From NCBI RefSeq assembly GCF_003860125.1, contig NZ_RQYL01000003.1:62001-126000 (forward strand): a stretch of DNA of 64,000 nt, written 5' to 3'. The notes beneath the pieces were generated by a model that did no database searches, was not told where the DNA came from, and saw only the letters and a list, made by a program, of their open reading frames with translations. Position 1 is the stretch's first letter, and each line of letters starts with the position of its first letter. A program made the translations under genes and the position numbers. Below are positions 6,156 to 44,834 of the stretch, piece after piece. The DNA comes from Fretibacterium sp. OH1220_COT-178. Its GTDB lineage: Bacteria; Synergistota; Synergistia; Synergistales; Aminobacteriaceae.

Positions 6156-6184
6156 CAAGGACCTCCTGAGGTCAAAGCCGGAAT

Positions 6185-6209
6185 GTCTCGCTTGAGACAC
6201 ATTATCTCA
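6185..6209. promoter_or_regulatory. two overlapping inverted repeats upstream of PBP1A
   Basis: GTCTC-GCTT-GAGAC (6185-6198) overlaps TGAGA-N7-TCTCA (6193-6209), 30-54 bases before the PBP1A start. On the minus strand the second repeat contains GATAAT, a possible -10 box. This could be an operator or an mRNA leader hairpin; I know of no regulator for this exact pattern. Confidence 0.35.
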
Positions 6210-6314
6210 CTTTTTCGCACGTTTTACCTTGGGAGGATGTCTCTTTTTTGAGGAGAATCGAAACCGCGGGCACGCAAGCGACCAAAGAGAAGCCGAAACA
6301 ACGGCAGTCGGAGC

Positions 6315-7554: not shown

Positions 7555-7557
7555 GGG

Positions 7558-8085: not shown

Positions 8086-9050
8086 GAAACCTCCTCGTTC
8101 GGCCCCAGACGACGGGCCAGATCCTCGGCAGCGCATCGGACCGCGGGGGTCAGAAAGGCGTTGCCCGTCCCGTCCAGCCGGACCAGCGTGTCCCCGTCGC
8201 GCTCGGAGACCTTCAGGTAATAGCGCTGCTCGAACTCGTCGTCCGTGGAAAAGGTGTCGATGAGGAAGCACCGGCTCCCCTTGGGATCGGCGTAGTAACG
8301 GCCGAAGGCCCAACGGGCGTCGTCGCTGCGCCCCGAGGTGCCCTCGAGCGCCGCGATGCGTTCCTCGTTCAGGGGGTGTCCCGTTTTGATGTGCATCTCC
8401 GCATCCCTCCAGGTCCGTCGTGATACCGTAAAATCCCGGGTCTTGGCAAAGGTCAGCCTGTGGATCGCCTTCCCCTGCTCCATCCATTTGCGCTCGTACT
8501 TCGTCGTGACGGGGCGTTCGGGGTTCATCTCGTATTGACGGAGCGAGAGCGCCTCATGAGCGTCGAGCCGCTTGCGGACCTCCTGAGCGTAGGGCTCGTC
8601 GTCGGTGACCAGCTCGAAGATGCCGTCCGTCTTCAAAACCGCCGCGAGGTCGTCGGTGAATTCCCGCGCGGTGACGCGGCGGTGTGCGTGGCGCTTCTTG
8701 GGCCAGGGGCAGGGAAAGTTCATGTAGACCTTGTCCAGGGAGGCATCCCTGAAAAGCTCCTTCATCATGTAGCGGGCGTCCGTGCGTATGATCCTCAGAT
8801 TGTTCAATCCCCTGGATCGCTTGGCGCAACGCAGGACGCAGGCTGGCGAGACCTCCATGCCGAACAGAAGGACGTCCGGGTTCGCCTCGGCGTGGCGCAC
8901 CGTGTATTCCCCGTTGCCGAAGCCGATCTCCAGCTCCACCCGGCCCCTGCTCTGCGACAGGCCTTCCAGGTCGAGGGGCAAGGGCAATCCGCGCGGCAAC
9001 AGAATGTTGCCGTAACCGCTCTGGGACCGGACGAAGTTCAGAACGTCCAT
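8082..9050 (-). CDS. trmB: tRNA (guanine46-N7)-methyltransferase, long form
   Basis: A 322-residue enzyme making m7G46 in tRNA. The catalytic core is in the first ~210 residues: LEIGFGNGEY binds SAM and PWPKKRHAHRRV is the family's tRNA-contact signature. The remaining ~110 residues form a C-terminal extension absent from E. coli TrmB, though long forms are known in some deep-branching bacteria; it ends in a mixed alpha/beta domain of unknown role. The ATG at 9050 lies 13 bases inside the end of the phosphohexomutase gene, and the stop overlaps the rsmD TTG start. Confidence 0.9.
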   Translation of the reverse strand: MDVLNFVRSQSGYGNILLPRGLPLPLDLEGLSQSRGRVELEIGFGNGEYTVRHAEANPDVLLFGMEVSPACVLRCAKRSRGLNNLRIIRTDARYMMKELFRDASLDKVYMNFPCPWPKKRHAHRRVTAREFTDDLAAVLKTDGIFELVTDDEPYAQEVRKRLDAHEALSLRQYEMNPERPVTTKYERKWMEQGKAIHRLTFAKTRDFTVSRRTWRDAEMHIKTGHPLNEERIAALEGTSGRSDDARWAFGRYYADPKGSRCFLIDTFSTDDEFEQRYYLKVSERDGDTLVRLDGTGNAFLTPAVRCAAEDLARRLGPNEEVS

Positions 9051-10414
9051 GTGAAGTCCGGAAGGCCTTCCGCGCGCAGCCGCTTTTTGACGTCCTCCAT
9101 GATAAACGCCAGGGTCTTCTCGTCCTTGCCCTCGCAGCGGGTCGTGACGACGGGCTGGGTGTTGGAGGCTCGGATCAGCCCCCAGCCGCCCGGATAGAGA
9201 ATGCGGATTCCGTCCAGCGTCAACCCCTCGTAGGCCTCGAGGGCCTTCTCCTGAATGCGGCGGACGACGTCGAACTTCTGGGCGTCCGGGCAGTCGATCC
9301 GGGCCTCCTCCGTGGCGGGGTAGAGGGGAATGGAGCTCATCAGTTCGGAGAGCGTTCTTCCCGTGGCGGAGAGGATTCTCAGGAGGCGTCCGGCCGCGTA
9401 GAACGGGTCGTCGAACCCGTAGTATTCGTCGGCGAAGAACATGTGTCCCGAGAGCTCGCCGGCGAAGGGGGCGCCGATCTCACGCATTTTTGCCTTGATG
9501 ACGGAGTGGCCGGACTTCCAGAAGAGGACACGCCCTCCCAGGCGCTCGATCTCCTCGGGCAGGGCCATGCTGCATTTGGGTTCGACGATGGCCTCGGCGC
9601 CCGGATGGGCCTTGAGGATCTCGGCCCAGTAGAGGGCCATCAGCCGGTCGCCGAACACGACCTCTCCATGTTCGTCCACCACGCCCAGACGGTCCGCGTC
9701 GCCGTCGAAGGCAAAGCCGATATCCGCCCCCGTCGCGCGGACCTTCCCGATCAGATCCTGAAGGTTTTCGCGTTTCTGCGGGTCGGGGTGATGGTTGGGA
9801 AAACGCCCGTCCGGCTCCCCGTAGAGCGGGGTGCATTCGCAGCCCAGGGACTCGAAAAAGCGCCCTGCGACGGGGCCGGCGGCCCCGTTGCCGCTGTCGC
9901 AGACGACCTTGAAGCGGCGGGAAAAGGGCCTGAACTTCGAGGCGAGCATCGCCAGATATTCGTCCGTGATGTCCCGACGGATCACCGACCCCGATCCTTG
10001 GGGCCAAGTGCCCGATTCCGCGATCCGCCGTATCGCCTGCACGTCGTCGCCCCAGAGCGTCGCGTTGTCGTAGCCCAGCTTCAGGCCGTTCATGTTCGAC
10101 GGATTGTGGCTGCCCGTGATCATGACGGCGCCCTTCAGATGCAGGTGGTGCAGGCTCCAGTAAAGTATGGGAGTCGTGACGGTCCCGATGTCGACGATAT
10201 CGGTTCCCGTCGAGACGAGTCCTCGGGTCACGGCGGCTCGAATGCGTGGGGTCGAGAGCCGCACGTCCCCTCCGACGGAGACGCGATCGACCCCCTTTTC
10301 CCTCAACCAAGCGCCGTAGGACCGACCGATCGCCTCCACCACATTGTCGGTCAGGTCCCGATCCGCATCCCCGCGAATGTCGTATTCCCTGAAAATATCC
10401 GGCGAGATATTCAC
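9038..10414 (-). CDS. phosphomannomutase/phosphoglucomutase
   Basis: A 458-residue alpha-D-phosphohexomutase that interconverts hexose 1- and 6-phosphates, feeding nucleotide sugars for surface polysaccharide. The N-terminal REYDIRG is typical of the PMM/PGM branch. TGSHNPSNMNG holds the catalytic phosphoserine, FDGDADRLG the magnesium-binding loop, and GELSGHMFF the sugar-binding loop. The C-terminal phosphate-binding region has RASNTQP. Whether mannose or glucose is preferred cannot be told. The start at 10414 lies 20 bases after the aminotransferase gene. Confidence 0.9.
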   Translation of the reverse strand: MNISPDIFREYDIRGDADRDLTDNVVEAIGRSYGAWLREKGVDRVSVGGDVRLSTPRIRAAVTRGLVSTGTDIVDIGTVTTPILYWSLHHLHLKGAVMITGSHNPSNMNGLKLGYDNATLWGDDVQAIRRIAESGTWPQGSGSVIRRDITDEYLAMLASKFRPFSRRFKVVCDSGNGAAGPVAGRFFESLGCECTPLYGEPDGRFPNHHPDPQKRENLQDLIGKVRATGADIGFAFDGDADRLGVVDEHGEVVFGDRLMALYWAEILKAHPGAEAIVEPKCSMALPEEIERLGGRVLFWKSGHSVIKAKMREIGAPFAGELSGHMFFADEYYGFDDPFYAAGRLLRILSATGRTLSELMSSIPLYPATEEARIDCPDAQKFDVVRRIQEKALEAYEGLTLDGIRILYPGGWGLIRASNTQPVVTTRCEGKDEKTLAFIMEDVKKRLRAEGLPDFTWTF

Positions 10415-10434
10415 CGCGATCCTCTCCCTTCGGT

Positions 10435-11523
10435 TCAGCGCCCTTTCAAAACCGCTTCAAGCGTTCCCATGCCCTTTGCCACCAGGGTCTCGTCCGCCTG
10501 GCTGCCCATGTGTCCGATACGAAACACCCGTCCGTCCAGCGGACCGTAGTTTCCGCCGACCACGAGCCCTCTGCTTCTCAAGGCGGAGTCGAGCTCGTTC
10601 CACGTCCAGCCATCCGGGATGTTGAAGGCAGTGACGGTGGGGGAGCAGATCTCCTCGCGCATGGGGAAGAGCGTAAGTCCCATCTCGAGTCCCATCGTAC
10701 GGCAGAGATGTGCGGCACGGGCGTGGCGGGCATAAGCGTTTTCCGGCCCCTCCTCCATGATGGCTTCGAGGGCGATGTTGAGCGCCGTCATGCCCTGCCA
10801 GTCGTGAGTATAGGGCAGGGCATGCACCTCGGGGACCTTGCGCCAGGGCAGATAGGCGTCGTACCCGCTGTACCCCACGCGTTCGAAGACGTTCCAGGCG
10901 CGGGAGGAGACGGTGGAGACGGAGAGGGAGGGGGGAAGGGAAAGCACCTTCTGGCTCCCCAGAAGACCGATATCGATGAGGTTCCTGTCGACCTCTACAG
11001 GGACCCCGCCCCCGCTGGAGACGAAGTCGACGAGGAACAGGGCGTCCACCTCGCGTGCGATCTCGCCCAGCTCCCTCAGATTTTGAGCGAGGGTGCCGCT
11101 CGGGGTCTCGCAGTGCACGGCCGTGATCAGTTGCGGTCTATAACGCCGGGCCGCCTCCCTGACCTTCCGAGGGTCGGGAAGATCGTCGTAGGGGGCCGCA
11201 ACAATCTCGGCCTCCGCGCCGATGGCGCGGGCCATCTCCGCGAACCCCTCGCCGAAGAGGCCGGATGCGACGGCCAGCAGTCTTTCGCCAGGCCTCAGGG
11301 CGCTTTTGACGCCGCCCCACAGAATGGACATCGCCTCTCCGGACGTGATCACAACGCTTTCCTTGGTCTCCAGCAGTTTTTGCACGAGCCCCTGGTTCCG
11401 GGCGTACAGCTCGTAAAAATCGGCCTCCAAATCGGAGCTGCCGAAATCGGTGAGCCATGCCTCACGGATCTTCTGTGGCACCGAGACGGGGCCGGGCACC
11501 AGTGCGATGGGATAGGTCTTCAT
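10435..11523 (-). CDS. class V aminotransferase (alanine-glyoxylate/serine-pyruvate type)
   Basis: A 362-residue PLP enzyme of the small archaeal/bacterial alanine-glyoxylate aminotransferase group, likely transferring an amino group between alanine or serine and glyoxylate or pyruvate. The N-terminal PGPVSVPQ is typical. TSGEAMSILWGG and HCETPSG are phosphate-loop and active-site segments, DFVSSGGGVP supplies the ring Asp, and GSQKVLSLPP holds the PLP lysine. The ATG at 11523 follows AAAGGAAA. It heads the operon leading through phosphohexomutase to mpg; a terminator-like hairpin separates it from the secreted protein upstream. Confidence 0.88.
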   Translation of the reverse strand: MKTYPIALVPGPVSVPQKIREAWLTDFGSSDLEADFYELYARNQGLVQKLLETKESVVITSGEAMSILWGGVKSALRPGERLLAVASGLFGEGFAEMARAIGAEAEIVAAPYDDLPDPRKVREAARRYRPQLITAVHCETPSGTLAQNLRELGEIAREVDALFLVDFVSSGGGVPVEVDRNLIDIGLLGSQKVLSLPPSLSVSTVSSRAWNVFERVGYSGYDAYLPWRKVPEVHALPYTHDWQGMTALNIALEAIMEEGPENAYARHARAAHLCRTMGLEMGLTLFPMREEICSPTVTAFNIPDGWTWNELDSALRSRGLVVGGNYGPLDGRVFRIGHMGSQADETLVAKGMGTLEAVLKGR

Positions 11524-11675
11524 GAGTCTGTTTCCTTTCGGGGCTGAACCCTCTCTTAATGATATGCGGTTTTGCGAGGCGACTTCCAAAGGGATTTTTG
11601 CAATCGCCCGGAAAACGGCGGGCAAAAATGCCTGTCCAACCTCCAATTATACGGGTCCGCCACGAAAATGCAAAA

Positions 11676-11697
11676 GGGCCGCCCTGGAAGACGGCCC
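11676..11697 (-). terminator. probable terminator of the small secreted-protein gene
   Basis: GGGCCG/CGGCCC arms (11676-11681 and 11692-11697) around a 10-base loop are followed on the minus strand by TTTTG. The site lies 48 bases beyond the stop of the 11745-12230 gene. The T tract is short, so termination may be partial. Confidence 0.5.
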
Positions 11698-11744
11698 GAT
11701 GGGCGGCGTGGTTCTCGTCCCCAAGTCGGAGCAGGCTTCGGAGG

Positions 11745-12230
11745 TCACCGTTTCGTCAGGGCTCCGACCATCTTCTCGGCAAATTCGATCAGTTCCTCCC
11801 GAGTCGTCCCGGCGCTCTCCAGGGTGAGGGTCCTGTCCTTTCCCAGCTCGATGGCCAAGGCCAGCCCCAGGAGATCCTGGTCCTCCAGGATGGCACGGTG
11901 TCCCGCGATCTCGATTGTGCGATAGCGCGAGCCGAATCCGATCGGAAGGTCGACGGCGTCGACCTTTTTGGGGGGGACACGGAGCGTTCCCGGCCCGGCT
12001 CCCTCCATAAGGACGGCCTCGATTCGGGCGGCCGGAGCGTGGCGTGCATAAACGCGATTGTGCCAGGTGCCCAAATCCTCGGAGGCCGTTCGGAAGGGCA
12101 CCGTATCCCGGGACGATGCCGTCCAGGGCCCCAAACGGTTGGGGAGAGGGGCTCCCGCGGCGGCGGCGCAGAGAACGAGGAGGCCAAGAAACGAGGTGAC
12201 CGCAAGAACGGGCATACGCTTAAGGGGCAT
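11745..12230 (-). CDS. secreted protein of unknown function
   Basis: A 161-residue protein I do not recognise. Its N-terminus is a clear signal peptide: MPLKR, then a hydrophobic stretch to about residue 23 and an AAAAGAP cleavage region. The mature part looks like a small beta-rich domain with a helical C-terminus. There is no lipobox cysteine at the cleavage site, so it is probably periplasmic or secreted rather than a lipoprotein. The ATG at 12230 was chosen for GAGAGGAG eight bases upstream. It is divergently oriented from the branched-chain binding-protein gene. Confidence 0.7.
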   Translation of the reverse strand: MPLKRMPVLAVTSFLGLLVLCAAAAGAPLPNRLGPWTASSRDTVPFRTASEDLGTWHNRVYARHAPAARIEAVLMEGAGPGTLRVPPKKVDAVDLPIGFGSRYRTIEIAGHRAILEDQDLLGLALAIELGKDRTLTLESAGTTREELIEFAEKMVGALTKR

Positions 12231-12376
12231 TTCATCCGCTCCTCTCGAAAACGTGCTGAATTTCAGGACCGGACTTTCCGGCATGCCACGATTATACCGG
12301 ACTTTGTCGCAAACTGTTCTGCGCCATTCGAGGGAGGGAAAATCGTCGTTGATCCATCCAAAAATATATTTTACTA

Positions 12377-12405
12377 TTGAGATGTTTTGTGAAACATAAT
12401 ATAAT
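12377..12405 (+). promoter_or_regulatory. strong sigma-70-type promoter for the branched-chain binding protein
   Basis: TTGAGA (12377-12382) and a perfect TATAAT (12400-12405) are separated by exactly 17 bases, in an AT-rich island that contrasts with the GC-rich surroundings. The translation start is 82 bases beyond the -10 box. This is the clearest promoter in the window. Confidence 0.85.
12382..12397. promoter_or_regulatory. candidate operator in the promoter spacer
   Basis: ATGTTT-TGTG-AAACAT is a perfect inverted repeat with 6-base arms (12382-12387 and 12392-12397). It lies almost entirely between the -35 and -10 boxes, where a bound regulator would block RNA polymerase. The regulator is unknown and none is encoded beside it. 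Confidence 0.55.
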
Positions 12406-12487
12406 CACCCTCAAACCTTCGAGGCGAAGCGGCGAAGGTTGGGGTCCGAACGAGATCCTATCTTGAACGATGGAGGGAAGGACTTCG

Positions 12488-13657
12488 ATGAAACGATGGA
12501 ACGGGTTTGGCATGCTGCTGGGGATGTTTGTGCTGCTCTTCCTGCTGGGGGGCGCGGTGGGCTTTGCCGCCGAACCGATTAAGATCGGCTATATGGCGAC
12601 GCTGACCGGAGAGGGGGCCACGTGGGGCCAACACGAACGCGACGGGGCGCTTCTTGCGGTCAAGGATGTCAACGCAAGGGGCGGGCTCCTGGGGCGTCCG
12701 CTCGAGCTGATCTGCTACGACATCAAGGGAAAGCCGGAGGAGGCGGTCAACGCGATACGCCGCTTGATTCACGACGACAAGGTCGTCGCCATCGGAGGCA
12801 GCAACTACAGCGGCATTCAGCTTGCGGTCGCGCCCATTGCCGAGAAGGGGCAAGTCCCCGTCATCGCTACGTCGGCGACGAACCCAGCCGTTACGGTCGA
12901 TCCCAACACGGGCAAGGTCCGTCCCTACATGTTCCGTATAACATACACGGATCCCTATCAGGGAAGAGTCATTGCGGATTATCTCATCAAGAAATGCGGC
13001 GCCAAGAAGCTGGCGATTCTCGGCGACGTGGGGGACGCCTACTCCGAGGGGCTGACGGAGTTCGTCAGGAAGACGGCCGATGAACTGGGGGTCGAGAACA
13101 AGTTCTGGGCCTTCCGGGGAGGAGACGTGGACTTTCGGGCGCAGCTGACCTCCGCTCGGGAGTGGGGGGCGGACGCGATAGCGCTGACGATGCTCTACAA
13201 GGAGATGGGGCTGGTCATCAAACAGGCCGCGGAGCTGGACTGGAAGCCCTTCTTTATGGGCGGGGACGGGTACAGCCCTAATATCGCCGAGATCGCAGGC
13301 AAGGCTTTGGATGGGACGTTCTGGGTGAATAGCGTCAATATCGACGATCCTATGTTTGATGCCATGAAGAAAAGGTATAAGGAAGAGTTTGGTCAGGAAG
13401 CGACGGAAATTTCAAATACCGTCTACGCTTACGATGTGATGACGATGTTTGCCCATGCGATCGAGACGGCGGGGGTTGCCGAGGGTCCTGCCATCAAGGA
13501 TGCGATCGAAAACACGCAGAATCTTCAAGTGACGCATTTCAGCTGGAGCGTGGACAAGGCAACCCACAATCCACTGAACAAGCCTGCCTCGGTTTTCGAG
13601 GCCAAGGACGGCAAATTGGTCTTTCTGGAGCAATGGAAACCCGACGATGCAAAGTAG
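12488..13657 (+). CDS. branched-chain amino acid ABC transporter substrate-binding protein
   Basis: A 389-residue periplasmic binding protein of the LivJ/LivK (Peripla_BP_6) family that captures leucine, isoleucine, valine or related ligands. It has a signal peptide (to about residue 28, ending GFAAEP), then IKIGYMATLTGEGA and the ligand-loop segment GGSNYSG. The ATG at 12488 follows GGGAAGGA. The usual permease and ATPase genes (livHMGF) are absent: the next gene is a peptidase, and a strong terminator closes this transcript. It may serve a transporter encoded elsewhere or be an extra specificity subunit. Confidence 0.9.
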   Translation: MKRWNGFGMLLGMFVLLFLLGGAVGFAAEPIKIGYMATLTGEGATWGQHERDGALLAVKDVNARGGLLGRPLELICYDIKGKPEEAVNAIRRLIHDDKVVAIGGSNYSGIQLAVAPIAEKGQVPVIATSATNPAVTVDPNTGKVRPYMFRITYTDPYQGRVIADYLIKKCGAKKLAILGDVGDAYSEGLTEFVRKTADELGVENKFWAFRGGDVDFRAQLTSAREWGADAIALTMLYKEMGLVIKQAAELDWKPFFMGGDGYSPNIAEIAGKALDGTFWVNSVNIDDPMFDAMKKRYKEEFGQEATEISNTVYAYDVMTMFAHAIETAGVAEGPAIKDAIENTQNLQVTHFSWSVDKATHNPLNKPASVFEAKDGKLVFLEQWKPDDAK

Positions 13658-26749: not shown

Positions 26750-28753
26750 ATGGAGATCAAGAAATCTGTCTGTCCTTACGACTGTCCGGACTGCTGCGGC
26801 CTGTTGGTCCAGGTGGAGAACGGGAGGGCCGTACGCGTCGAGGGCGATCCCGCCCATGCCTTTACTCGCGGCACCCTTTGCCCCAAGATGACCCGCTATG
26901 AGCGCACGGTCCACTCGCCCCGCCGTCTGTTGACGCCCCTGCGCCGCAAGGGGCCGAAGGGCAGGGGCGACTTCGAGCCCTTCGGCTGGGACGAAGCGGT
27001 CCGTGAAATCACTGGCCGCTGGAAGGAGATTATCCGCGCGGACGGCGCCGAGGCCATCCTGCCCTATTCGTATGCCGGCACCATGGGAATCGTCCAGTAC
27101 GGCGCCGGCCACGCCTTCTTCCACCTGCTGGGCGCCAGCAGCCTAGATCGAACCATCTGTGCGCCGGCCAAGAGCAGGGGGTACCGGGACGTCATGGGCG
27201 CCACCCTGCCCACAGCCCCCCAGGAGGCGCAGAAAAGCGACCTCGTCGTGCTCTGGAGCATCAGCATGCTGGCCACGGACATCCACTTCCGCCATGACCT
27301 GGAGATTGCCCGCAGAAATGGTGCCGAGGTTTGGTGCATCGATACCTACGAGACCCCAACCGCCCGATACGCCGATCGTTTCCTTCGCGTGAAGCCGGGG
27401 ACGGACGGCGCCCTTGCGCTCGGCATGTTGCACGTCCTGGAACGCGACGGTCTCGTGGATACGGATTTTCTGCGGCGGTACGTGCAGGGCTGGGAGGAAC
27501 TCAAGGCAGGCGTCCTGCCCCGCTATTCGCCGGAGGCGGTCTCCCGCATCACGGAGATCTCCATGGGTGCCCTTGAGGCCTTTGCCCGCGCCTACGGTCG
27601 TGCCCGTGCTCCGTTCATCCGCCTGGGCAGCGGCATGTCCCGGTACACCAACGGCTCCATGACCGCCCGGCTCATCACCTGCCTGCCGGCGGCAGTGGGC
27701 GCCTATGCGCATGAGGGCGGCGGTCTGCTGACCTCGGCATCCGGAAGCAGCGCCTTCGACAACGGAATCATCCGTCGGCCCGGCCTGGAGAAGCGGGGCA
27801 TTCGCCATATCAACATGTGCGAGCTAGGCAAGGCCCTCAACGACCCGGAGCTTTCTCCGGCTGTCAAAAGCCTTTATGTCTACTCCTCCAACCCGGCCTG
27901 CACCGCCCCGGATCAGAACGCCGTCGTCCGCGGCCTGATGCGGGACGACCTGTTCACCGTGGTCCACGAACGCTTCCTGACCGACACGGCGCGCTATGCC
28001 GACATCGTGCTGCCGGCCACCTCGTCCCTGGAGCACTGCGATATCTACGGAGCCTACGGTCACTACACCGTTCAGAGGGCGGATGCCGTCATTCCGCCCG
28101 TGGGCGAAAGCCGGTCCAATTGGCAGGTCTTCTCCGTCCTGGCAAACGGCATGGGATTGCAGGATCCCATGTTCCGGCAAAGTGAGCGAGACCTTGTGGA
28201 ACGGCTTATCGAAAGCACGAAGACCCGCTGGCCGCTGCCTGTGGACCTGAATCGTCTTGCCGGCTGCGAACCTGTGGATCTGCCGCTGCCCGAGAATTAC
28301 AAGATGAACTTCGGCACCCCTTCAGGCAGGATCGAGATCCGCAATCCCCGCGCCCATCCGGAACTGCCGGACTACTTCCCGCCCCATGGCGACGATGCCC
28401 CCTTCCAGATGGTCAACGCACCGGATCCGCGTATCCTGGACAGCTCCTTCAACGAGCGCGAAGATCTCATCAGAGGCAATACCATGGTGCTGATGATGAA
28501 TCCGCTCGATGCCGCAAGACTCGAGCTTGCCGAGGGGCAGGAGGTCGTCGCCTCCAATGTCCGCGGCGAGGCCCGTTTTACCCTGAAGGTCACGGAGCGC
28601 ACCGCCCCCGGCCGTGTCGTCACGGAGGGCGTCTGGTGGAGGGAACACACCAGGGACGGCAACGTCAATCTTCTCACCGCCCAGCGCCTCACCGACAAGG
28701 AGGGCGGGAGCACCTTCTACGACGTCTGCGTCGATGTGCGCGCCGCGGAGTGA
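26750..28753 (+). CDS. molybdopterin (bis-MGD) oxidoreductase with N-terminal [4Fe-4S] motif
   Basis: A 667-residue catalytic subunit of the DMSO reductase superfamily. CPYDCPDCCG plus a later GTLCPK supply the [4Fe-4S] cysteines. VKPGTDGALALGML and the central and C-terminal MGD-binding segments (YVYSSNPACTAP; TPSGRIEI) follow. There is no Tat signal, so it should be cytoplasmic. The substrate cannot be told; no small iron-sulfur, membrane-anchor or maturation gene is adjacent. Its glycines are mostly GGC and its G runs are rarer than in neighbours, suggesting acquisition. A GGAGGAGG site precedes the ATG. Confidence 0.85.
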   Translation: MEIKKSVCPYDCPDCCGLLVQVENGRAVRVEGDPAHAFTRGTLCPKMTRYERTVHSPRRLLTPLRRKGPKGRGDFEPFGWDEAVREITGRWKEIIRADGAEAILPYSYAGTMGIVQYGAGHAFFHLLGASSLDRTICAPAKSRGYRDVMGATLPTAPQEAQKSDLVVLWSISMLATDIHFRHDLEIARRNGAEVWCIDTYETPTARYADRFLRVKPGTDGALALGMLHVLERDGLVDTDFLRRYVQGWEELKAGVLPRYSPEAVSRITEISMGALEAFARAYGRARAPFIRLGSGMSRYTNGSMTARLITCLPAAVGAYAHEGGGLLTSASGSSAFDNGIIRRPGLEKRGIRHINMCELGKALNDPELSPAVKSLYVYSSNPACTAPDQNAVVRGLMRDDLFTVVHERFLTDTARYADIVLPATSSLEHCDIYGAYGHYTVQRADAVIPPVGESRSNWQVFSVLANGMGLQDPMFRQSERDLVERLIESTKTRWPLPVDLNRLAGCEPVDLPLPENYKMNFGTPSGRIEIRNPRAHPELPDYFPPHGDDAPFQMVNAPDPRILDSSFNEREDLIRGNTMVLMMNPLDAARLELAEGQEVVASNVRGEARFTLKVTERTAPGRVVTEGVWWREHTRDGNVNLLTAQRLTDKEGGSTFYDVCVDVRAAE

Positions 28754-30418: not shown

Positions 30419-30898
30419 ATGACCGTTTTTGTTCTTTCCTTTCTGGCCTATCTGACGCTCGCCTGGTCCGGGGAGTCCGGAGGGGGGATTCTTTTCGAAG
30501 CCCTTGGGGCCGCCTCCATCGTAACGCTTGCGGCACCGGGGATCCCCATCGACTTAAGACCCGGCAGGGGCCTCAATCCGAGACGCTGGTGGCTCGTTCT
30601 GCGCTGCCTCTTCGGGCCGGTCCTCTCAGGACTTGTAAGGGGGGCGCTCGAGGTGGGCGGTCGGTTCACAACCGGGGACATGCACCCCGGGATCGTCAGT
30701 TTCGATCCCCATCTCAAGCGCGATCTCGCCCGGGCCCTGTTGGCGGGGCTCCTGAATCTCCGCCCGGGTATCCTGGTGCTGGACGTCGGCGGAGACGGCG
30801 TCTTTTGTCTTCATCTTCTCGATGCCCGAGGCGGGGCCGCCGAGGCGGAGAAGATGTGCATGCCCCTTGTGCGGTGGGTCAGGAGGATCGCGGAGTGA
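30419..30898 (+). CDS. MrpE/MbhA-like subunit
   Basis: A 159-residue membrane protein homologous to MrpE (PhaE, MnhE) of multisubunit Na+/H+ antiporters and MbhA of archaeal membrane-bound hydrogenases. Two or three N-terminal hydrophobic segments are followed by the family's cytosolic part (MHPGIVSFDP, then VLDVGGDGVFCLHLLDA). The ATG at 30419 follows AGGGGG. First gene of the 12-gene cluster; its stop overlaps the mrpF-like GTG start (GTGA). Confidence 0.85.
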   Translation: MTVFVLSFLAYLTLAWSGESGGGILFEALGAASIVTLAAPGIPIDLRPGRGLNPRRWWLVLRCLFGPVLSGLVRGALEVGGRFTTGDMHPGIVSFDPHLKRDLARALLAGLLNLRPGILVLDVGGDGVFCLHLLDARGGAAEAEKMCMPLVRWVRRIAE

Positions 30899-31161
30899 GT
30901 GGGGTCCCCTGCCTTTTGATGGGGATGGCGGTTTTGTTTTTGACGCTGTCTCTGGCCGCTTTGCCCCGACTCCTTTTCGCATCCGGCCGGGAGGATCGGC
31001 TGGTGGTGCTCGACGCGTTCAACACCCTGGTCTCCCTGGCTCTCCTGCTGGCGGCGGCGGCCTGCGAATCCCTGGTCATGGTCGACATCGCGATCGTCTA
31101 CATCGTGGTCTCCTTCATTGTCGGGCTCTGTCTGGTCCAAGCCTCGGAAAGGGGGGTGTGA
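30895..31161 (+). CDS. MrpF/MbhB-like subunit
   Basis: An 88-residue protein with three predicted membrane helices, matching MrpF/MbhB in size and topology. The DRLVVLDAFNT segment between helices 1 and 2 is the family signature (RlvAlD). It starts with a GTG at 30895 overlapping the previous stop, and the mrpG-like ATG follows one base after its stop. Confidence 0.82.
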   Translation: MSGVPCLLMGMAVLFLTLSLAALPRLLFASGREDRLVVLDAFNTLVSLALLLAAAACESLVMVDIAIVYIVVSFIVGLCLVQASERGV

Positions 31162-31162
31162 G

Positions 31163-31516
31163 ATGCCGGCGATTCTTCTCGCGTTGCCGCTGCTGACGGG
31201 ATTCCTTTTCGGCCTTCTGGGGGTGATCGCCCTGTATCGTTTTCCCGACGTTTACACGCGAATTCAGGGGGAATTCAAGTGTTTGACCGCAGGAGGGATC
31301 TTCGTCTCGGCCTCGTTGCTGCTCCATGCCCTCGTGAGCTTCCTCGCGGACGAGGGGGAGGAGCACTTTCTGCCGCTGTTCCTGCACATCCTGGTTGCGG
31401 GAGTTCTTCTGGCGGTGCTAAAAACCGTCGGCGTTCATGCCCTGGCCCGCGCCGTTTTTCGATCGGGACCGTCGGCCGGTTCCTCGTCCGCTCCCGAGGA
31501 GAGGAGGGCGTCATGA
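31163..31516 (+). CDS. MrpG/MbhC-like subunit
   Basis: A 117-residue membrane protein of the MrpG/PhaG family. GLLGVIALYRFPDVYTRIQ is the diagnostic helix 1-2 region (GxxGxxRxPDxxxRxH in relatives, here with Gln where His is usual). Three helices fit the family. The stop overlaps the next ATG (ATGA). Confidence 0.85.
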   Translation: MPAILLALPLLTGFLFGLLGVIALYRFPDVYTRIQGEFKCLTAGGIFVSASLLLHALVSFLADEGEEHFLPLFLHILVAGVLLAVLKTVGVHALARAVFRSGPSAGSSSAPEERRAS

Positions 31517-31770
31517 CCTCCGTTCTTTACGTTCCGCTGCTTACGGCCCTGCTGTTTTCGGGATGCGCGTCCTTGTGGATTCCGGGAGCCTTGAGCGCGG
31601 TGTTCTCCTTCGCCGTGTTCCACCTTCTTCTCGCGGTGGCGTTTTATGTTTTGGGGGCTCCCGATGTAGCCTTCATACAGCTTGCGGTCGGTTCGGGCCT
31701 TTCGACCATCGTCCTCGTGATCGCAATCCGGGCCTGTCGCGTCAACGGAGAGGGAGGAGGCGTCCGATGA
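31513..31770 (+). CDS. DUF4040/MbhD-like subunit
   Basis: An 85-residue three-helix protein. It corresponds to MbhD, the DUF4040 part that in classical Mrp systems is fused to the end of MrpA. APDVAFIQLAVGSGLSTIV matches the family's PDVAxxExxVGxG region, but the usual glutamate is Gln (FIQLAVG). Starts and stops overlap both neighbours by the ATGA arrangement. Confidence 0.78.
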   Translation: MTSVLYVPLLTALLFSGCASLWIPGALSAVFSFAVFHLLLAVAFYVLGAPDVAFIQLAVGSGLSTIVLVIAIRACRVNGEGGGVR

Positions 31771-32042
31771 AAAAAATCCTTTTTGCGGCCGCCGCCGTGC
31801 TTTTGGCGGCGCTGTTTTATGGGGCTTTCTCCGTCGTCCGCCCCTTGGATTTTTCACGGGGAGCGTTCTCGGCGGACCGCTATCCGGGACGGCATTTCAA
31901 AAGAAATCTATCGACGGAACGGGTCTATGAGCTCGTCGGGCACGACCGCGGATTGGACAGCCTGATTGCGGCCGCGGCATTTTTCGCGGCATTCTGCGGC
32001 ATCAGTGCCCTCTTTCGCGAGGGCGGAGGCAGGGGGCGATGA
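31767..32042 (+). CDS. MbhE-like subunit (divergent)
   Basis: A 91-residue protein with a hydrophobic N-terminal helix, a polar middle and a second helix. Position and pattern fit MbhE, the other part of the MrpA C-terminus: relatives have a TGAxNxVxxILxDxRGxDTLGE segment, whose remnant here may be TERVYELVGHDRGLDSLI. The match is weak and rests mainly on gene order between MbhD- and MrpB-like genes. ATGA overlaps on both sides. Confidence 0.6.
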   Translation: MKKILFAAAAVLLAALFYGAFSVVRPLDFSRGAFSADRYPGRHFKRNLSTERVYELVGHDRGLDSLIAAAAFFAAFCGISALFREGGGRGR

Positions 32043-32491
32043 GGCCGATGTCGCCGGTGGTCGTCACGACGTCGAAGTTTCTGGCCTGTTTTTTGGCGGT
32101 GTTCGGCCTCTACCTGGTCGGTTCCGAAGGGGGCGGGTTGGCGCACTGTGCCGGAGCGCTCCTCGCCCTGCTTCCGGTGCTTCTGCTGGTGTCCTGGGGG
32201 GAGGGGCGTTTCTATTCCTGGTTCCGGGACGGAGTCTTCGGCCTCATGACTTTCGTCGGACTCCTTTCGATGTTTTTTCTGGTCTGCCGGGAGGTCCTCG
32301 GAGGGGATGCGGCTGGCTTCCGTTCAGCTGAGAATGCTCGGTCCCTCCGGGGAATGAGCGTCGCCTCGACCCTGGCCTTCCTGGGGGGCTTCGCGCGCAT
32401 TCTCGTCCACATGTACGACAGCATCGCATGGAACAGCAGGGGAGCGGGAGGGGAGCGCGGGCATGACCGATTCGATCGTGAGCCCCGATAA
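32039..32491 (+). CDS. MrpB/MbhF-like subunit
   Basis: A 150-residue membrane protein with about four helices, in the place of MrpB/MbhF. The first helix and following residues (TTSKFLACFLAVFGLYLV) resemble the family's start, but the conserved PGGGFxGG loop is missing. The ATG at 32039 overlaps the previous stop; ATG 32048 is possible. Its end overlaps the next gene by 29 bases. Confidence 0.62.
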   Translation: MRPMSPVVVTTSKFLACFLAVFGLYLVGSEGGGLAHCAGALLALLPVLLLVSWGEGRFYSWFRDGVFGLMTFVGLLSMFFLVCREVLGGDAAGFRSAENARSLRGMSVASTLAFLGGFARILVHMYDSIAWNSRGAGGERGHDRFDREPR

Positions 32492-32819
32492 CGCCGCGTA
32501 CCTGGTCGCGGCTCTTTTGGTCCTCGCGTCCCTTCTCTGCCTCCTGATGCGCCGGGACCGCATCCGGCTGTGCGTTGCCGTCAACGTCCTGGCCTCGGCA
32601 GGAAGCCTGCTGCTGCTCCTGTGGGGCTGTCGGAACGGCAATGCTCTTCCCGCCGCCGACGGTCCCCTTGCGCAGGGGGGGCTTCCGACCTTCCGCTTCT
32701 TCGCGCTGCTCTCCATACTGCTCTCCTTCTCGGCCTTCGTCCTGATGCTGGCTTTGGTCGTCCTTCTCGGCAGGCATCACGGGCCGGCCGGATCCAATGG
32801 AGGCGAAAGGACACAATGA
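32463..32819 (+). CDS. MrpC/NuoK/MbhG-like subunit
   Basis: A 118-residue three-helix protein in the place of MrpC/MbhG, homologous to complex I NuoK. The helix 2 region reads RIRLCVAVNVLASAGSLLLL; the NuoK/MrpC glutamate of GLELL appears replaced by Asn. The last helix (SFSAFVLMLALVVLLGR) fits the family. GGGAGGGGAG precedes the ATG. The stop overlaps the next start (ATGA). Confidence 0.7.
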   Translation: MTDSIVSPDNAAYLVAALLVLASLLCLLMRRDRIRLCVAVNVLASAGSLLLLLWGCRNGNALPAADGPLAQGGLPTFRFFALLSILLSFSAFVLMLALVVLLGRHHGPAGSNGGERTQ

Positions 32820-34672
32820 GCTGGCGCATGCACCTCCCGTTTCTGCTGATTGTCGTGCCGGTGGGGGGAGCCTTCCTGATGCCCTTCGTCGGACGCCTGG
32901 GCGAGACGGCCCGGGACCGCTTCTACCGTCTGGTCCCCTTTCTGCTTGTCCCGCCGGCCGTGCTGCTTTTTTTGAGGCACCTTGGGCAGGGCACCTCCCT
33001 TTACGTTCTTGGAGGAGGTACGGGCCTGCTCCCTGGAGACTGGGGCGCGGTACGGATTCTGCTCGCGATCGATCCCTTTTCCTCCGGGCTTGTCCTCTGC
33101 ACGGTCCTGCTGTCCCTTTCCGGAGCGCTGTTCTCGGTCCGGGACATGGAGCGTTTTTCCGGAAAAAAACGTTACGCGTCCCTCCATCTTCTTCTGGTGT
33201 CGGGGACCGTCGGGATGTGCCTGGCCGCAGATCTTTTCAGTCTTTTTGTGTTCATGGAGCTGTGTTCCCTGTCGGCCGCCGGTTTGACGGCCTTTTGGAG
33301 GGACCGGCCGGAGAGCCTCGGTGCGGGGTTCCGATCCCTGGTCAGCGATCGGGTAGGGGCGATCTTTTTCCTGATGGCCGCTGGGGCCCTCTGCGGAAGA
33401 TACGGAACATCGAACATTTTTCTGCTGGCGGAACGAATGCGCTCCGGCCCTCTGGAACTCCTCGTCCTGGCTGTTTTTCTGGTGGTCCTTGCCTCTCGAT
33501 GCGGACTCTTTCCGTTGCATGTCGGAGCCGTCGACACCCTGGGTGAGGTGCCCGGAGGCATCGCCTGCCTCGTGGCTGCCCGTCTCCAGGCCGCCTTTTG
33601 CGCGATGGTGCGCCTCTGCGGCGTGCCGTTCGCAGAGCTTGCGGGGACAGCGTCCTGGTGCTTGATTGTCCTGGGGGGCCTGTCGGGACTGGCGGGTGGC
33701 TTCATGAGCCTGAGGGAGAGGGATCTCCGCCGTCTTGCGGCCCATATCCTCGTCTCTCAATCGGGCTTTGCGGTCTCGGCTTTGGGGTTGGCGCTTCGGC
33801 TGAAGCAGGCGGATCCTGGGCGGTGGGCGGCACTCGAGGCCGGGCTCCTCCTGAGCATTCTTGCCGCTCTGGCCGGGGGGCTCCTTCTGCTGTGCACCGC
33901 GTCCCTCTGCCATTCCGCGGGAACCCGATTTCTCGACAGAATGGGAGGCTTGGCCCAAAACATGCCGTGGACGCTCTCCTTTACCCTGATGGCCGGGGCC
34001 TTCCTCGTTGGGCTCCCTCCCCTCAGCGGTTTCACGGCAAGATGGAAACTTTGTGGAGCCGGAATATTTCTGGGCCCGCTTTTCCCTGCCGTGCCCCTCG
34101 TCGCCTCCCTGTGGGGAACCGGAGGGATCCTGAGGGGGGTGAGCGGCGCCTTTTTGGGCCCCTTCCGAAGGTCTCCGAGCGCCGTTGGCGAGGTCCCCGA
34201 CGGGATGAAGGCAGGCATGGGAGTTCTCGCGTCGTCGCTCCTGGCCGTTGGTTTGTTGGTCGACTGGTTCCCCGCCGGGTTCCTCGAGTCGGGGGCCCGC
34301 TCGGTGTTCGACTCCCGAAGGGCCGTTGGCGTGCCCTTGGGCTGGAATGGTCCGGTATCCGATTTCGGGTATTGGAATGTGCTTGCCGGCTGCGTTCTTT
34401 CCCTTTTTGTGGGGGGAAGCCTTTTGGCGCTTCGGGCCTTCGGGCTCGCAGAGTCGGGGGGGCGGAGCTGCCGGGAGGGGGTCCGTCCGTTTGCCGAACG
34501 AGGGGAGGAACTCGGGGCCCCCTCCTTCGATTTGAGCTCCTTCGGCCGAACACGGCGCCCGTTTTGGGACCTTCCGGGTCTTCTGCACGACGGAGGCGTG
34601 GCGGACAGCGTGGGGTGGCTTCTGTCGACCCTGACCGTTCTCGCACTTTGGCTCCTTTGGGGGGCACGATGA
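32816..34672 (+). CDS. MrpD/NuoM/MbhH-like antiporter subunit, divergent and extended
   Basis: A 618-residue protein with about 14 predicted helices, of the proton-conducting antiporter family (PF00361). FVFMELCSLSAAG keeps the helix 5 glutamate. FPLH, GLPPLSGF and LAAHILVSQSGF mark helices 7, 12 and 9-10. By eye the conserved helix 7, 8 and 12 lysines are Arg, Gln and Arg. It is about 100 residues longer than MbhH, with a polar stretch and one extra C-terminal helix that could stand in for the missing small MbhI. ATGA overlaps both neighbours. Confidence 0.8.
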   Translation: MSWRMHLPFLLIVVPVGGAFLMPFVGRLGETARDRFYRLVPFLLVPPAVLLFLRHLGQGTSLYVLGGGTGLLPGDWGAVRILLAIDPFSSGLVLCTVLLSLSGALFSVRDMERFSGKKRYASLHLLLVSGTVGMCLAADLFSLFVFMELCSLSAAGLTAFWRDRPESLGAGFRSLVSDRVGAIFFLMAAGALCGRYGTSNIFLLAERMRSGPLELLVLAVFLVVLASRCGLFPLHVGAVDTLGEVPGGIACLVAARLQAAFCAMVRLCGVPFAELAGTASWCLIVLGGLSGLAGGFMSLRERDLRRLAAHILVSQSGFAVSALGLALRLKQADPGRWAALEAGLLLSILAALAGGLLLLCTASLCHSAGTRFLDRMGGLAQNMPWTLSFTLMAGAFLVGLPPLSGFTARWKLCGAGIFLGPLFPAVPLVASLWGTGGILRGVSGAFLGPFRRSPSAVGEVPDGMKAGMGVLASSLLAVGLLVDWFPAGFLESGARSVFDSRRAVGVPLGWNGPVSDFGYWNVLAGCVLSLFVGGSLLALRAFGLAESGGRSCREGVRPFAERGEELGAPSFDLSSFGRTRRPFWDLPGLLHDGGVADSVGWLLSTLTVLALWLLWGAR

Positions 34673-35058
34673 ACACGCCGCTCAGGGAAGGGATTTTTAT
34701 ACGATCCCCGTGGATTCTTCCCTTTCACGGGGAGGGCGACGGGGGGTTCCGGACCGAGTTCCTCCTGTCCGAGTTGACTCGAATCCAGCCAGGGCTCCGG
34801 TACGTGACGAGCCCCCGTCACGCCGATGTCCTGCTGATCCTGGGGGCGGTCAGGGAGGATCTGTCCGGCCCGCTCGGGCTTATTTACTCTCAGATGTCCA
34901 GGCCGAGGGCAGCCGTCCTGGTTCTGGACCGCTGCGTCCTTTCGGATTCGGGGTCGCTTGGGGGGCTTCCGGCCGAGACGATCTCCGTCGATGCGTCGCC
35001 GGAGGCCGTCTGGCGAGGGATTCGGGAGGCCTTGTGCGGGCGGAGGGCGAAAACATGA
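34669..35058 (+). CDS. NuoB/MbhJ-like subunit lacking iron-sulfur cysteines
   Basis: A 129-residue protein whose SPRHADVLLILGAV matches the core of complex I NuoB and hydrogenase small subunits. In relatives four cysteines bind a [4Fe-4S] cluster: two in CNGC near the N-terminus, one in GxCP and one in GCPP. Here the first pair is FHGEGDGGF and the last is VDASPE; only the DRC cysteine may remain. The cluster cannot form in the usual way. The usual length is 140-170 residues. ATGA overlaps on both sides. Confidence 0.75.
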   Translation: MNTPLREGIFIRSPWILPFHGEGDGGFRTEFLLSELTRIQPGLRYVTSPRHADVLLILGAVREDLSGPLGLIYSQMSRPRAAVLVLDRCVLSDSGSLGGLPAETISVDASPEAVWRGIREALCGRRAKT

Positions 35059-35513
35059 ACGCCAGGTTCAGAAAAAATGCGTTGCCCTGTCCGGAGCTGG
35101 CGGAGCGGCTGAACGCCCGTTTCGGGGAGTCCCTGAAGATCGTCGCGATCCTGGAACGGAGGGGCGGGCACGCCCGTTCCGTTCAGGGACAGGATCTCCT
35201 CCTCCGCGTCGCTCCGACGTCGTTTGCCGGTTTTGTCCGGGCGCTCTTCGAATTCGACGGGCCCGTCTTTCACGGCCTCTTCGGCGAGAGCGGCGAAGAA
35301 GGAGTTCTGTTGCACTATCATTTCTCCCTCTTCCAAAGACGTAGGGGAAGTCGGGTGGGAATCCAGGCCACGGTTCCTCTGCATCGGGAAGAGCTTTCCA
35401 TCCCGTCCCTCGTCGACCTGCTCCCGAGTGCGGAGGGCTGCGAACGCAGGCTGGAAAAGATCCTGGGCGTTTCCTTTCACCCCGGCGGAGGGACGCCCTT
35501 CGAGGAGGAATGA
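35055..35513 (+). CDS. NuoC/MbhK-like subunit
   Basis: A 152-residue soluble protein resembling the 30-kDa complex I subunit NuoC. LLHYHFSLF (strand), then TVPLHREELSIPSLVDLLPSA with the following ERxxEKILGVSFHP, corresponds to the family's IPSLxxxxPxAxWxEREIxDxxGIxFxGHP, although the tryptophan and DxGI residues are changed. It lies between the NuoB- and NuoD-like genes, as in complex I and Mbh. The ATG at 35055 overlaps the previous stop. Confidence 0.8.
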   Translation: MNARFRKNALPCPELAERLNARFGESLKIVAILERRGGHARSVQGQDLLLRVAPTSFAGFVRALFEFDGPVFHGLFGESGEEGVLLHYHFSLFQRRRGSRVGIQATVPLHREELSIPSLVDLLPSAEGCERRLEKILGVSFHPGGGTPFEEE

Positions 35514-35516
35514 GCG

Positions 35517-36590
35517 ATGTCGAGGCCCTATACCCTTCTGTTGGGTACGACCTGCTCCGGCTCCATTCCGGTTCCGCTTCGTTTGGAGCTGGAGGGGGAA
35601 CGCATCCTGGGGGCCCGTCTCCTGCCGTTCCCTGAAAAAAACTCCTGGCGTACCGTGTCCCCGGAGCGGGGGCTGAAGATCGTCGCAGGGCTTCCGGGGA
35701 CGGACGCCTTTGCCCGCAGTCTCTGCTATATTCAGGCCGTAGAGCGCGCGGGGGGCTGGGAGGTCCCCCCGAGGGGGCAGTATGTCCGTACCGCGATGCT
35801 CGAGCTGGAGCGGATGGCCTCGCACCTCCTGTGGATCGCACGGCTCTGCCGCTCCATCGGCTTCGCTTCAGGCCTTCACAGGGCGCTACGCTTGGGACAT
35901 TCCGTCCTGGAAGCTGCGGACCCCCTTTTAGAGGCGCCTTTCGGCCGCGGGCTCCTGAAGGTCGGGGGGGTCTCGAAGGACATCTCTCCCAAGGCCGACC
36001 GTGAGATTCGGAGGATGGCCGTGTCCCTTCCCGGCGAGTTCGAATCCCTGTCCTCACGACTGCTGAAGGGGGTTCCGGTCCGCCCGCGCATCGAGGCCGT
36101 GGGCATACTGGGGCGGGCGGAGGCCCTGCGCTGCGGAGTGACCGGGCCGGTCGCCCGCGGCAGCGGGATTCGCATGGATCTTCGAAAGAGCGCCCCCGGG
36201 GAGGCCTACTCGGATATCGAAGTGGAGCCGGTCCTTCCTGGGGAGTCCGGCGGAGGGGGGCGCGGGGATGTGCGTGACCGTTTGGCCGTTCGTGTGGGCG
36301 AGCTGTCTCAGTCGTTGCGGATACTTATAAAAATTTTTGAGGGGCTCCCCGAAGGGCCCCTCGCCACCGAGCCCCTGGCTCCCCCTCTTGGAGCGACGGG
36401 GTGGGGCATCGTCGGGGCGCCTCAGGGGGACGAGAATCAATTCGTGCGCTTGGATGGAGAGGGCAACGTCTCCCTGTGGGAGCGCCGATCGCCCGGGGCG
36501 TCCAATCTGACCGCGCTGCCCGATCTGCTCGTGGGGAACGAACTGGCCGATGTCGCTCCGATCCTGGCCAGCGTCGCCCCGGTATTCTGA
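35517..36590 (+). CDS. NuoD/NiFe-hydrogenase-large-like subunit without metal ligands
   Basis: A 357-residue homologue of NuoD/MbhL. ELERMASHLLWIA is the strongly conserved family helix, and VGGVSKDI and the closing ELADVAPILASVAPVF also align. In hydrogenases, RxCGxC and C-terminal DPCxxC hold nickel and iron. Here the first is LPGTD, and the protein stops at APVF, where DPCxxC would begin. It cannot carry a NiFe site; complex I NuoD also lacks one. It starts 3 bases after the NuoC-like gene. Confidence 0.8.
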   Translation: MSRPYTLLLGTTCSGSIPVPLRLELEGERILGARLLPFPEKNSWRTVSPERGLKIVAGLPGTDAFARSLCYIQAVERAGGWEVPPRGQYVRTAMLELERMASHLLWIARLCRSIGFASGLHRALRLGHSVLEAADPLLEAPFGRGLLKVGGVSKDISPKADREIRRMAVSLPGEFESLSSRLLKGVPVRPRIEAVGILGRAEALRCGVTGPVARGSGIRMDLRKSAPGEAYSDIEVEPVLPGESGGGGRGDVRDRLAVRVGELSQSLRILIKIFEGLPEGPLATEPLAPPLGATGWGIVGAPQGDENQFVRLDGEGNVSLWERRSPGASNLTALPDLLVGNELADVAPILASVAPVF

Positions 36591-36615
36591 CGGGGGCCGA
36601 AGGGGGGGGCGCGTC

Positions 36616-37614
36616 ATGAGCGTATTTTTTGCCCTGTTTCTGAAAATGTTCGCCGCTGCGGTCCTTCTGCCCCTGGCGGCCTTGGGGGCCCTGATCTCGG
36701 ATGGCGCCGTGCGGGGGCTCGCCGCCCGCATTCTGGGAGAGCCCTCTCCGTCCCCTCTGCAGCCGGTCCATGACGTCCTCAAGCTCTCCTTCAAGGAGTC
36801 CATCGAGCCGAGGGGCTCCGCCGGGCCCCTGTTTCGAGCCGCTCCCTGGCTCTCTCTGGCCCTGGTCCTGATGGTCTTTCTCTACATCCCCGCGGGACGT
36901 TTTCCTGCCGTGCTGGGCGGCGAGGGCGACGTGATCCTGATCTTTTTCCTTCTTGTCGCGAGCAGTTCCTTCAGGGTGCTGGGGGGAACGGCAAGCGCAA
37001 ATTCGTTGGCCGTCCTGGGGGCCGGACGGGAGACGGCCCTGATGATGGCCTGGGGCGTCCCCTTTTCCCTCGTCGTCGGCGCGCTGGCCTGGCTGGCCTG
37101 GCGCACGGGAATGCCCGGGGTCCCGATGGGAATCGAGGTGTTCGTGGCGAAGTCCGTATGGTCGGTGGTCGGCGGGGCCGGGGTGCTGGGCCTGACCGCA
37201 CTGATGTTTGCCCTTGCCGCCATCCTGCCCGCAGTCTCGGGAGAGGGTCCCATGCAGATATCCGAATCCGAGGACATCCTCTCGGGTCTGTCCGTCGAGT
37301 ACAGCGGCATCGACCTCGCTTTTCTCGAGATTGCAGGTTCCCTTCGCGCCTTTGCCGTATCCGCCCTCTTCGTCTCGTTCTTCTTGCCGATCTCGGCTTC
37401 GGGCCCTTTCGGTCGAGGAGGCTTCTTCGTTGCGACCCTCGAATTCCCGCTCTTCTGGACCAAGGTCTTTCTCGTCCGGACAACGATTGGAAGCGCATCC
37501 AGGGTGCTCTTCACCCGCCTCTCTCCCGGAGGGGCCGTGCGGTTCTGCCTGGGGGGAGCCCTGGGGCTGTCGCTGGTCGGGGCCCTGTTGCTGTCCGTGG
37601 ATCTTCTGCTTTAG
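36616..37614 (+). CDS. NuoH/MbhM-like membrane subunit
   Basis: A 332-residue membrane protein with about eight helices, the best conserved part of the arm. LQPVHDVLKLSFKESIEP, the GAGRETALM helix and ESEDILSGLSVEYSG match complex I NuoH, whose glutamates line the path joining the peripheral arm to the membrane ion channels. The ATG at 36616 follows a GGGGGGG-rich site 25 bases after the NuoD-like gene. It is the last gene of the cluster; an Mbh operon would continue with the ferredoxin-like MbhN, which is absent here. rarA ends convergently 10 bases on. Confidence 0.85.
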   Translation: MSVFFALFLKMFAAAVLLPLAALGALISDGAVRGLAARILGEPSPSPLQPVHDVLKLSFKESIEPRGSAGPLFRAAPWLSLALVLMVFLYIPAGRFPAVLGGEGDVILIFFLLVASSSFRVLGGTASANSLAVLGAGRETALMMAWGVPFSLVVGALAWLAWRTGMPGVPMGIEVFVAKSVWSVVGGAGVLGLTALMFALAAILPAVSGEGPMQISESEDILSGLSVEYSGIDLAFLEIAGSLRAFAVSALFVSFFLPISASGPFGRGGFFVATLEFPLFWTKVFLVRTTIGSASRVLFTRLSPGGAVRFCLGGALGLSLVGALLLSVDLLL

Positions 37615-43721: not shown

Positions 43722-44834
43722 CTATACCTCCAGAAGTGTGTAGTCTCGGGACCCCATGCCGAGGGCTTCGCCGTGTTCCAGCGTGACCTCCCACGGCATG
43801 TCGGCATAGACGCCGCGGATCTTGTCCTCCCCGGGAAGCAGGTTTCTGCCGTTCAGCATGCTGCACTCGTTGCCGCGCTGGGCGTTGACCTTGTCGATAC
43901 ATGCCCAGTCCAGAGCGATGGGGTCGAAGGAGGCCAGGATGCCGACATCCGGAATCAGATAGGAATCGCTCCAACCGCAGCAGTCGCACTCCGGGGTGAA
44001 GTTCATGACGAAGTTGATGTAGGCCACCCGACCCCGCTTGCTCTGGGCGGCGCCGTGGGCGTATTCCGCCATCCTCCTCAGGAAATCCGCGGTATCCGCA
44101 TTCTCTCCCATCCTGATGCAGGAGGTTGGACAGACGGTGGCGCACTCGCCGCAGCCGATGCAGTGGGCGACATCCACCTGAGCCTTGCCGTCGGGTACCG
44201 TGATGGCGCTCTCGGGACAATGGGCCGCGCAAGTTCCGCACCCGACACAGTCGGGCCCGGAGATGTTGGGATGGATGTAGGCGTGCTGCTCCTCCTTGCC
44301 CTTCGATGGCGCACAGCCCATCGCCAGGTTCTTGACGGCCCCTCCGAAGCCGGCCATCTGGTGCCCCTTGAAGTGGGTCAGGACCACCATGCTGTCCGCC
44401 TCCACGATGTCCCGGGCTATCTTCACGCGGGAGAAGAAGGAGCCCTCGATGGGAATCTCGACGAAGCTGTGGCTGCGCAGGCCGTCCGCGATGATCAGGG
44501 GGGCACGCACCGTGGCGTAGGAGTAGCCGTGCTCCAGGGCCGTCTCCAGATGGTCCACCGAGTTTTTCCGGCTTCCCAGGTAAAGCGTGTTCGTGTCCGT
44601 GATGAAGGGCTTGGCTCCGGCGTCGCGAATCGCATCCACGACCTGGCGGGCGAATACGGGGTTGAGATAGCTGTCGTTACCGCGTTCGCCGAAGTGCAGC
44701 TTGACGGCCGTCAGGTCCCCCTCCTTCAGGATACGGGTCATGTCCATACTCTTCATGAGCCGTTTCAGGCGATTGATCTTGTTGTCCTCGGCGCTGCGGG
44801 TTCGAAAGGATGAAAACCACACCTTAGAGGGCAT
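43722..44834 (-). CDS. DUF362 protein with two [4Fe-4S] ferredoxin motifs
   Basis: A 370-residue cytoplasmic iron-sulfur protein. An N-terminal DUF362 domain (TAVKLHFGERGNDSYLNP, then KGHQMAGFGGAVKNLAMG) is followed by two CxxCxxCxxxCP clusters (CVGCGTCAAHCP and CIGCGECATVCP), then the rest of DUF362 with CDCCG. The family is widespread in anaerobes; its role is not established. ATG at 44834. It forms a pair with the membrane protein that follows. Confidence 0.88.
   Translation of the reverse strand: MPSKVWFSSFRTRSAEDNKINRLKRLMKSMDMTRILKEGDLTAVKLHFGERGNDSYLNPVFARQVVDAIRDAGAKPFITDTNTLYLGSRKNSVDHLETALEHGYSYATVRAPLIIADGLRSHSFVEIPIEGSFFSRVKIARDIVEADSMVVLTHFKGHQMAGFGGAVKNLAMGCAPSKGKEEQHAYIHPNISGPDCVGCGTCAAHCPESAITVPDGKAQVDVAHCIGCGECATVCPTSCIRMGENADTADFLRRMAEYAHGAAQSKRGRVAYINFVMNFTPECDCCGWSDSYLIPDVGILASFDPIALDWACIDKVNAQRGNECSMLNGRNLLPGEDKIRGVYADMPWEVTLEHGEALGMGSRDYTLLEV

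Follow-up and report, generated by a model that had tools for sequence, protein, structure and literature searches.

The window, a 64,000-nucleotide stretch of DNA, contains at positions 30419-37614 of its + strand an operon that, with roughly an even chance in our judgement, encodes a respiratory "pseudo-complex", that is, a near-complete complex I-superfamily assembly that has lost its redox ligands and most of the known pump residues and has been retained by selection in two genera for a new non-redox job. The three points beneath this reading, an origin from Mbh, the loss of redox function and maintenance by selection, are highly probable when taken jointly on the sequence evidence given below. 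The operon consists of 12 intact, tightly packed open reading frames (ORFs) with seven 4-base stop/start overlaps and is flanked by ksgA upstream and rarA downstream; a molybdopterin oxidoreductase-like ORF (window 26750-28753) lies on the same strand, upstream of the ybaK-ksgA-operon run. Pfam matches and synteny identify the ORFs as MrpE, F, G, MbhD, MbhE, MrpB, MrpC, MrpD, NuoB, NuoC, NuoD and NuoH-like, in the number and order described in an initial annotation of this DNA. That annotation placed the MrpD-like ORF correctly but erred in labelling it a single subunit, since it joins MbhH to MbhI, which many relatives encode in two ORFs of ~520 and ~112 aa; the 12 ORFs thus encode 13 of the 14 Mbh-hydrogenase subunits, and MbhN is missing. 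The features are as follows.

30419..30898, + strand: MrpE / MbhA-like (Pfam MNHE 1.7e-15; syntenic in relatives), with the ribosome-binding-like site TTAGGGGGG upstream
30895..31161, + strand: MrpF / MbhB-like, GTG start, intramembrane Asp kept (Pfam MrpF 3.8e-6; alignment)
31163..31516, + strand: MrpG / MbhC-like (Pfam PhaG 1.4e-13), start ATG at 31163 with a ribosome-binding-like AGGGGGG immediately upstream
31513..31770, + strand: MbhD-like, Glu of AEA replaced by Gln (Pfam MbhD 1.4e-11; alignment)
31767..32042, + strand: MbhE-like, conserved Glu of GEA lost (position and alignment with relatives; no Pfam family match)
32039..32491, + strand: MrpB / MbhF-like, PGGGF motif lost (tblastn with a relative 7e-18, alignment; no Pfam match)
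32463..32819, + strand: MrpC / MbhG-like (NuoK-like) (Pfam Oxidored_q2 7e-9)
32816..34672, + strand: MrpD / MbhH-like fused to MbhI-like (~34343-34657), 618 aa (Pfam Proton_antipo_M 8e-27; 6CFW chain H 4.9e-50)
34669..35058, + strand: NuoB / MbhJ-like, 129 aa, one of four cluster Cys left (6CFW chain J 8.7e-6; Foldseek of model to 6CFW_J 6.8e-6; alignment)
35055..35513, + strand: NuoC / MbhK-like (Pfam Complex1_30kDa 1.7e-4; synteny)
35517..36590, + strand: NuoD / MbhL-like, 357 aa, without NiFe Cys, its C-terminal CxxC cut off and Gln in place of the catalytic Arg (Pfam Complex1_49kDa 5e-34; 6CFW chain L 3.8e-40)
36616..37614, + strand: NuoH / MbhM-like, lacking two channel Glu and followed by no MbhN (Pfam NADHdh 1.9e-34; 6CFW chain M 7e-27)

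The operon has the MbhA-M gene order by which Mbh-type group 4 [NiFe] hydrogenases are recognized, and the Pyrococcus furiosus Mbh (6CFW) is the top solved-structure sequence match for each of the four subunits searched (those like MbhH, J, L and M); only one Proton_antipo_M ORF is present, and there is no MrpA with an antiporter domain of its own. A related operon occurs in 62 of the 101 genomes first searched, as a single copy per genome, now and then accompanied by distant paralogues, and the loci retrieved from this family and order show this gene order too. One intact operon (G016) also has ksgA directly upstream, as in the window. In each of the 34 aligned Synergistota operons all four cluster cysteines of NuoB are present, and every complete copy among them (one is a fragment) keeps the NiFe cysteines and adjacent catalytic residues; an MbhN-like 2x[4Fe-4S] ORF ends most of the relatives' operons, and HypD is present in most of the operon-bearing genomes tested. 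Judged by this anatomy, the relatives make up an ordinary family of Mbh-type [NiFe] hydrogenases, and since the relatives keep all of the FeS and NiFe ligands, the loss in the window form is derived. Mean identity per subunit is 52-75% among the relatives, whereas it is 29-43% between the relatives and the window copy.

At the four ligand positions of the NuoB proximal [4Fe-4S] cluster, the alignment has D, F, C and a gap in the window copy where 34 of 34 relatives have C, C, C and C, so one of the four cysteines is retained. All four NiFe cysteines of the window NuoD are gone, and the protein is truncated ahead of the second CxxC. Changed or deleted, these cysteines included, are the Cys-Cys-His of CGICSFSH, the Glu of LKEP, the Arg and Glu of RGxE, the Arg of APRG and the Asp-Cys-Cys of DPCxxC, positions that are fully conserved in 33 relatives and in one fragment that lacks the last four of them. 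No 2x[4Fe-4S] MbhN ORF follows NuoH in the window operon, as it does in nearly every relative compared, and the window genome yielded neither a NiFeSe_Hases match nor a HypD maturation protein. A ferredoxin-like tblastn match at 44073-44249 falls in an unrelated minus-strand ORF. The FeS chain in NuoB/NuoI-like subunits, by which Ehr and Mbx complexes are recognized, is likewise not kept. Ligand loss on this scale is, for the aligned sequences, far beyond chance, and the residues present exclude electron transfer through the peripheral arm by any known path. Thus the initial annotation holds in reading the NuoB-like subunit as stripped of most cluster cysteines, the NuoD-like subunit as free of NiFe ligands and the operon as lacking an MbhN/NuoI-like ORF after NuoH, and in its view of a retained scaffold whose peripheral arm is unable to pass electrons along the usual path.

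The same gutted operon lies between ksgA and rarA in a Fretibacterium sp. metagenome-assembled genome (MAG) of a second genus (JAAYOR010000190.1; G011 below, with the window genome as G000). It has the MbhH-I fusion of the window copy and is without the cluster and NiFe Cys sets; no MbhN was found after its NuoH, and searches for HypD and NiFeSe_Hases gave no match. Its NuoC and NuoD share one open frame (L135 5904-7323), a fusion absent from the window copy, and an assembly break splits its NuoD across two contigs. Contamination or an assembly artefact is ruled out, as the window contig is 154 kb long and the ksgA-rarA locus recurs in a MAG that was assembled separately. The two copies share 22 identical derived changes at conserved sites of NuoD, where 7 are expected, and 21 in MbhH, where 7.1 are expected; among the shared changes are R303Q of the APRG motif and N349L, Y353A and K354G of the proton channel. 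Because identical derived changes are about three times the expectation and the fusion and flanks are the same, the loss of redox and channel residues predates the split of G000 and G011. No dead-type NuoD was found beyond these two in the 183 order and 188 phylum genomes searched, and scans of genome contigs and viral sequences gave no further gutted copies, so only two genomes carry the form. The cysteine loss is shared with G011 and not with the 34 intact relatives. Import of a foreign gutted family by horizontal transfer is unsupported, since the concatenated tree nests G000 and G011 within the family and the searches of the phylum turned up no other such form.

The alternative that survives best, although we consider it somewhat unlikely, is slow decay, in which function is gone, deletion is approaching and the frames stay open through residual or indirect constraint. 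Three observations favour it. The gutted copies, which the concatenated tree joins as sisters with a long stem, evolve many times faster than RpoB in comparison with intact copies. RpoB trees group G000 and G011 with G006, G012, G015 and G026 (98% bootstrap; order within the clade not resolved), and no Mbh-type operon is present in any of those four. Finally, G010 (L031, contig C49) represents a partial stage: it keeps all redox ligands but lacks MbhN, its MbhH has the channel Lys changed to Arg and a second Lys to Asn, its NuoH has a Glu changed to Gly, its NuoB has a 10-residue deletion and an altered loop, and the RGxE region of its NuoD is altered. G010 adjoins G000 and G011 in the membrane-arm tree, but its erosion looks independent of theirs because RpoB places it among the intact genomes. 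Operon loss in the sister group and the separate erosion of G010 fit slow decay; for comparison, G010 offers an intermediate state and the clade without the operon an end state.

Against decay stands the state of the reading frames themselves. Fourfold-site identity between G000 and G011 is 0.35, where 0.29 is expected at random, and dN is 0.65 with dS at ~2 or more, giving an NG86 dN/dS of ~0.32 with dS near saturation. Yet neither genus has any stop or frameshift in its ~2400 codons, where neutral drift in the G000/G011 comparison would give ~13-27 stops, and the seven stop/start overlaps are preserved in the window operon. The GY94 pairwise codon model gives an omega of ~0.08, imprecise because synonymous sites in this pair are near-saturated, and rejects omega=1 for the whole operon (2dlnL 496) and even for nuoB (34) and nuoD (76) alone. 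By the simpler count, dN/dS of the gutted pair is several-fold above that of intact NuoD and of KsgA, so constraint is relaxed, not absent. Thus purifying selection acted on the operon after the loss, with reading frames intact. The checks on decay proposed with the initial annotation therefore came out divided: relatives with intact cysteines, which favour decay, do exist, but a second genus has the same gutted form with open ORFs under purifying selection, and dN/dS is well below 1 with omega=1 rejected.

We favour instead, though with a chance that we put near one half, the reading that the gutted complex was selected for a non-redox job as the remnant of a respiratory complex, a job that on sequence grounds is most plausibly ion handling or scaffolding. 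The functional roles of the membrane-arm residues considered here are those given in PMC7684303, PMC11228991 and PMC9568556. The MbhH-like domain has Arg for its channel Lys and has lost the HxxNYxxYK motif, while the Glu of FVFxE is retained; the NuoH-like subunit lacks two channel Glu, MrpB its PGGGF motif and MbhE its Glu, while MrpF still has its Asp. Parts of the Na+ path are missing as well. In all, 22 of 47 conserved polar intramembrane residues are kept in the window copy, and of the invariant residues of MrpE/F/G roughly one half to three quarters survive. These losses, which the initial annotation overlooked, weaken its proposal of a working NuoH coupling subunit and antiporter parts. 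Since residues of NuoH, MbhH, MrpB and MbhE are lost, a classical regulated antiporter would need to function minus several canonical residues; loss of the canonical ion path in several subunits argues against such an antiporter, and classical Na+/H+ antiport by the window complex appears doubtful.

It is unlikely, in our estimate, that the complex is a non-transport scaffold or sensor that keeps other membrane proteins in place or detects a ligand within the former active-site cleft. Such a role would suit the pattern of conservation in the window copy, where structural Gly and Pro are among the best kept residues and membrane-arm N/Q/S/T the worst kept, and a Foldseek comparison in which the modelled NuoB fold is still MbhJ-like without its cluster; however, neither a partner gene nor a ligand pocket was found, and the single-chain AlphaFold model of NuoD (pLDDT 49) is too poor to use. 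That the complex is still a redox enzyme, using an unfamiliar cofactor or an MbhN encoded elsewhere, is very improbable: one NuoB ligand Cys is left in each copy and the NuoD C-terminus of G011 retains a PCHPVC remnant, but no known cluster could be ligated by the residues left in NuoB or in NuoD, the catalytic Arg, Glu and His have also disappeared, and HypD is absent.

Very probably the operon is that of an Mbh-type group 4 [NiFe] hydrogenase, passed down vertically. Its NiFe site, its NuoB cluster and several of the key proton-channel residues disappeared in the common ancestor of the window genus and its Fretibacterium-like sister; both lineages today lack HypD and, in the operon, MbhN. 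The subunits may still form a membrane complex capped by NuoB/C/D-like proteins, the peripheral arm acting as a structural or regulatory cap. Among mechanisms we favour, tentatively and at less than even odds, passive or gradient-driven ion flow through the remaining distal Mrp-type module (MrpE/F/G, with the MrpF Asp).

Elsewhere in the window genome, a strong [FeFe] hydrogenase match is present (G000:C32:13325-14188, L109), as are an RNF-type subunit and, on contig C22 (L195, bases 4518-12693), a separate multi-antiporter operon, in which four Proton_antipo_M matches occur along with an MrpC-like ORF; hydrogen and ferredoxin could therefore be handled without Mbh. The [FeFe] hydrogenase match recurs in the four tested genomes of the operon-less clade, and the same search found none in G011. 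Several Proton_antipo_M matches likewise occur in the related clade without the Mbh operon and not in G011.

The series Mrp, Mbh, Mbs and complex I is commonly viewed as a ladder on which redox function increases. In the window operon that ladder seems to have been run in reverse with nearly the whole machine kept, which may provide a natural test of subunit roles without electrons. No complex of this kind was found described in the open-access literature searched. With the P. furiosus Mbh (6CFW) and the intact Synergistota Mbh it has in common the MbhA-M gene order, the best sequence matches and the best NuoB fold match; it differs in having no NiFe site, NuoB cluster or MbhN, in its lost channel residues and in the fusion of H and I. 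The Mbs/Mbx sulfane-sulfur reductase is an Mbh relative that also lacks NiFe ligands, but its proximal [4Fe-4S] cluster is still present and catalytic, and it has two proton-pump subunits (PMC7684303), whereas in the window complex the cluster is gone and a single, altered pump subunit is left. Ehr complexes are group 4-related, lack NiFe ligands and are thought still to be redox enzymes (PMC6349859); in the window complex the FeS path is lost too. The Mrp Na+/H+ antiporter is non-redox (PMC9568556) and has MrpB-G-like subunits in common with the window complex, in which, however, MbhD/E replace MrpA, several key Mrp residues are missing, and NuoB/C/D/H are kept.
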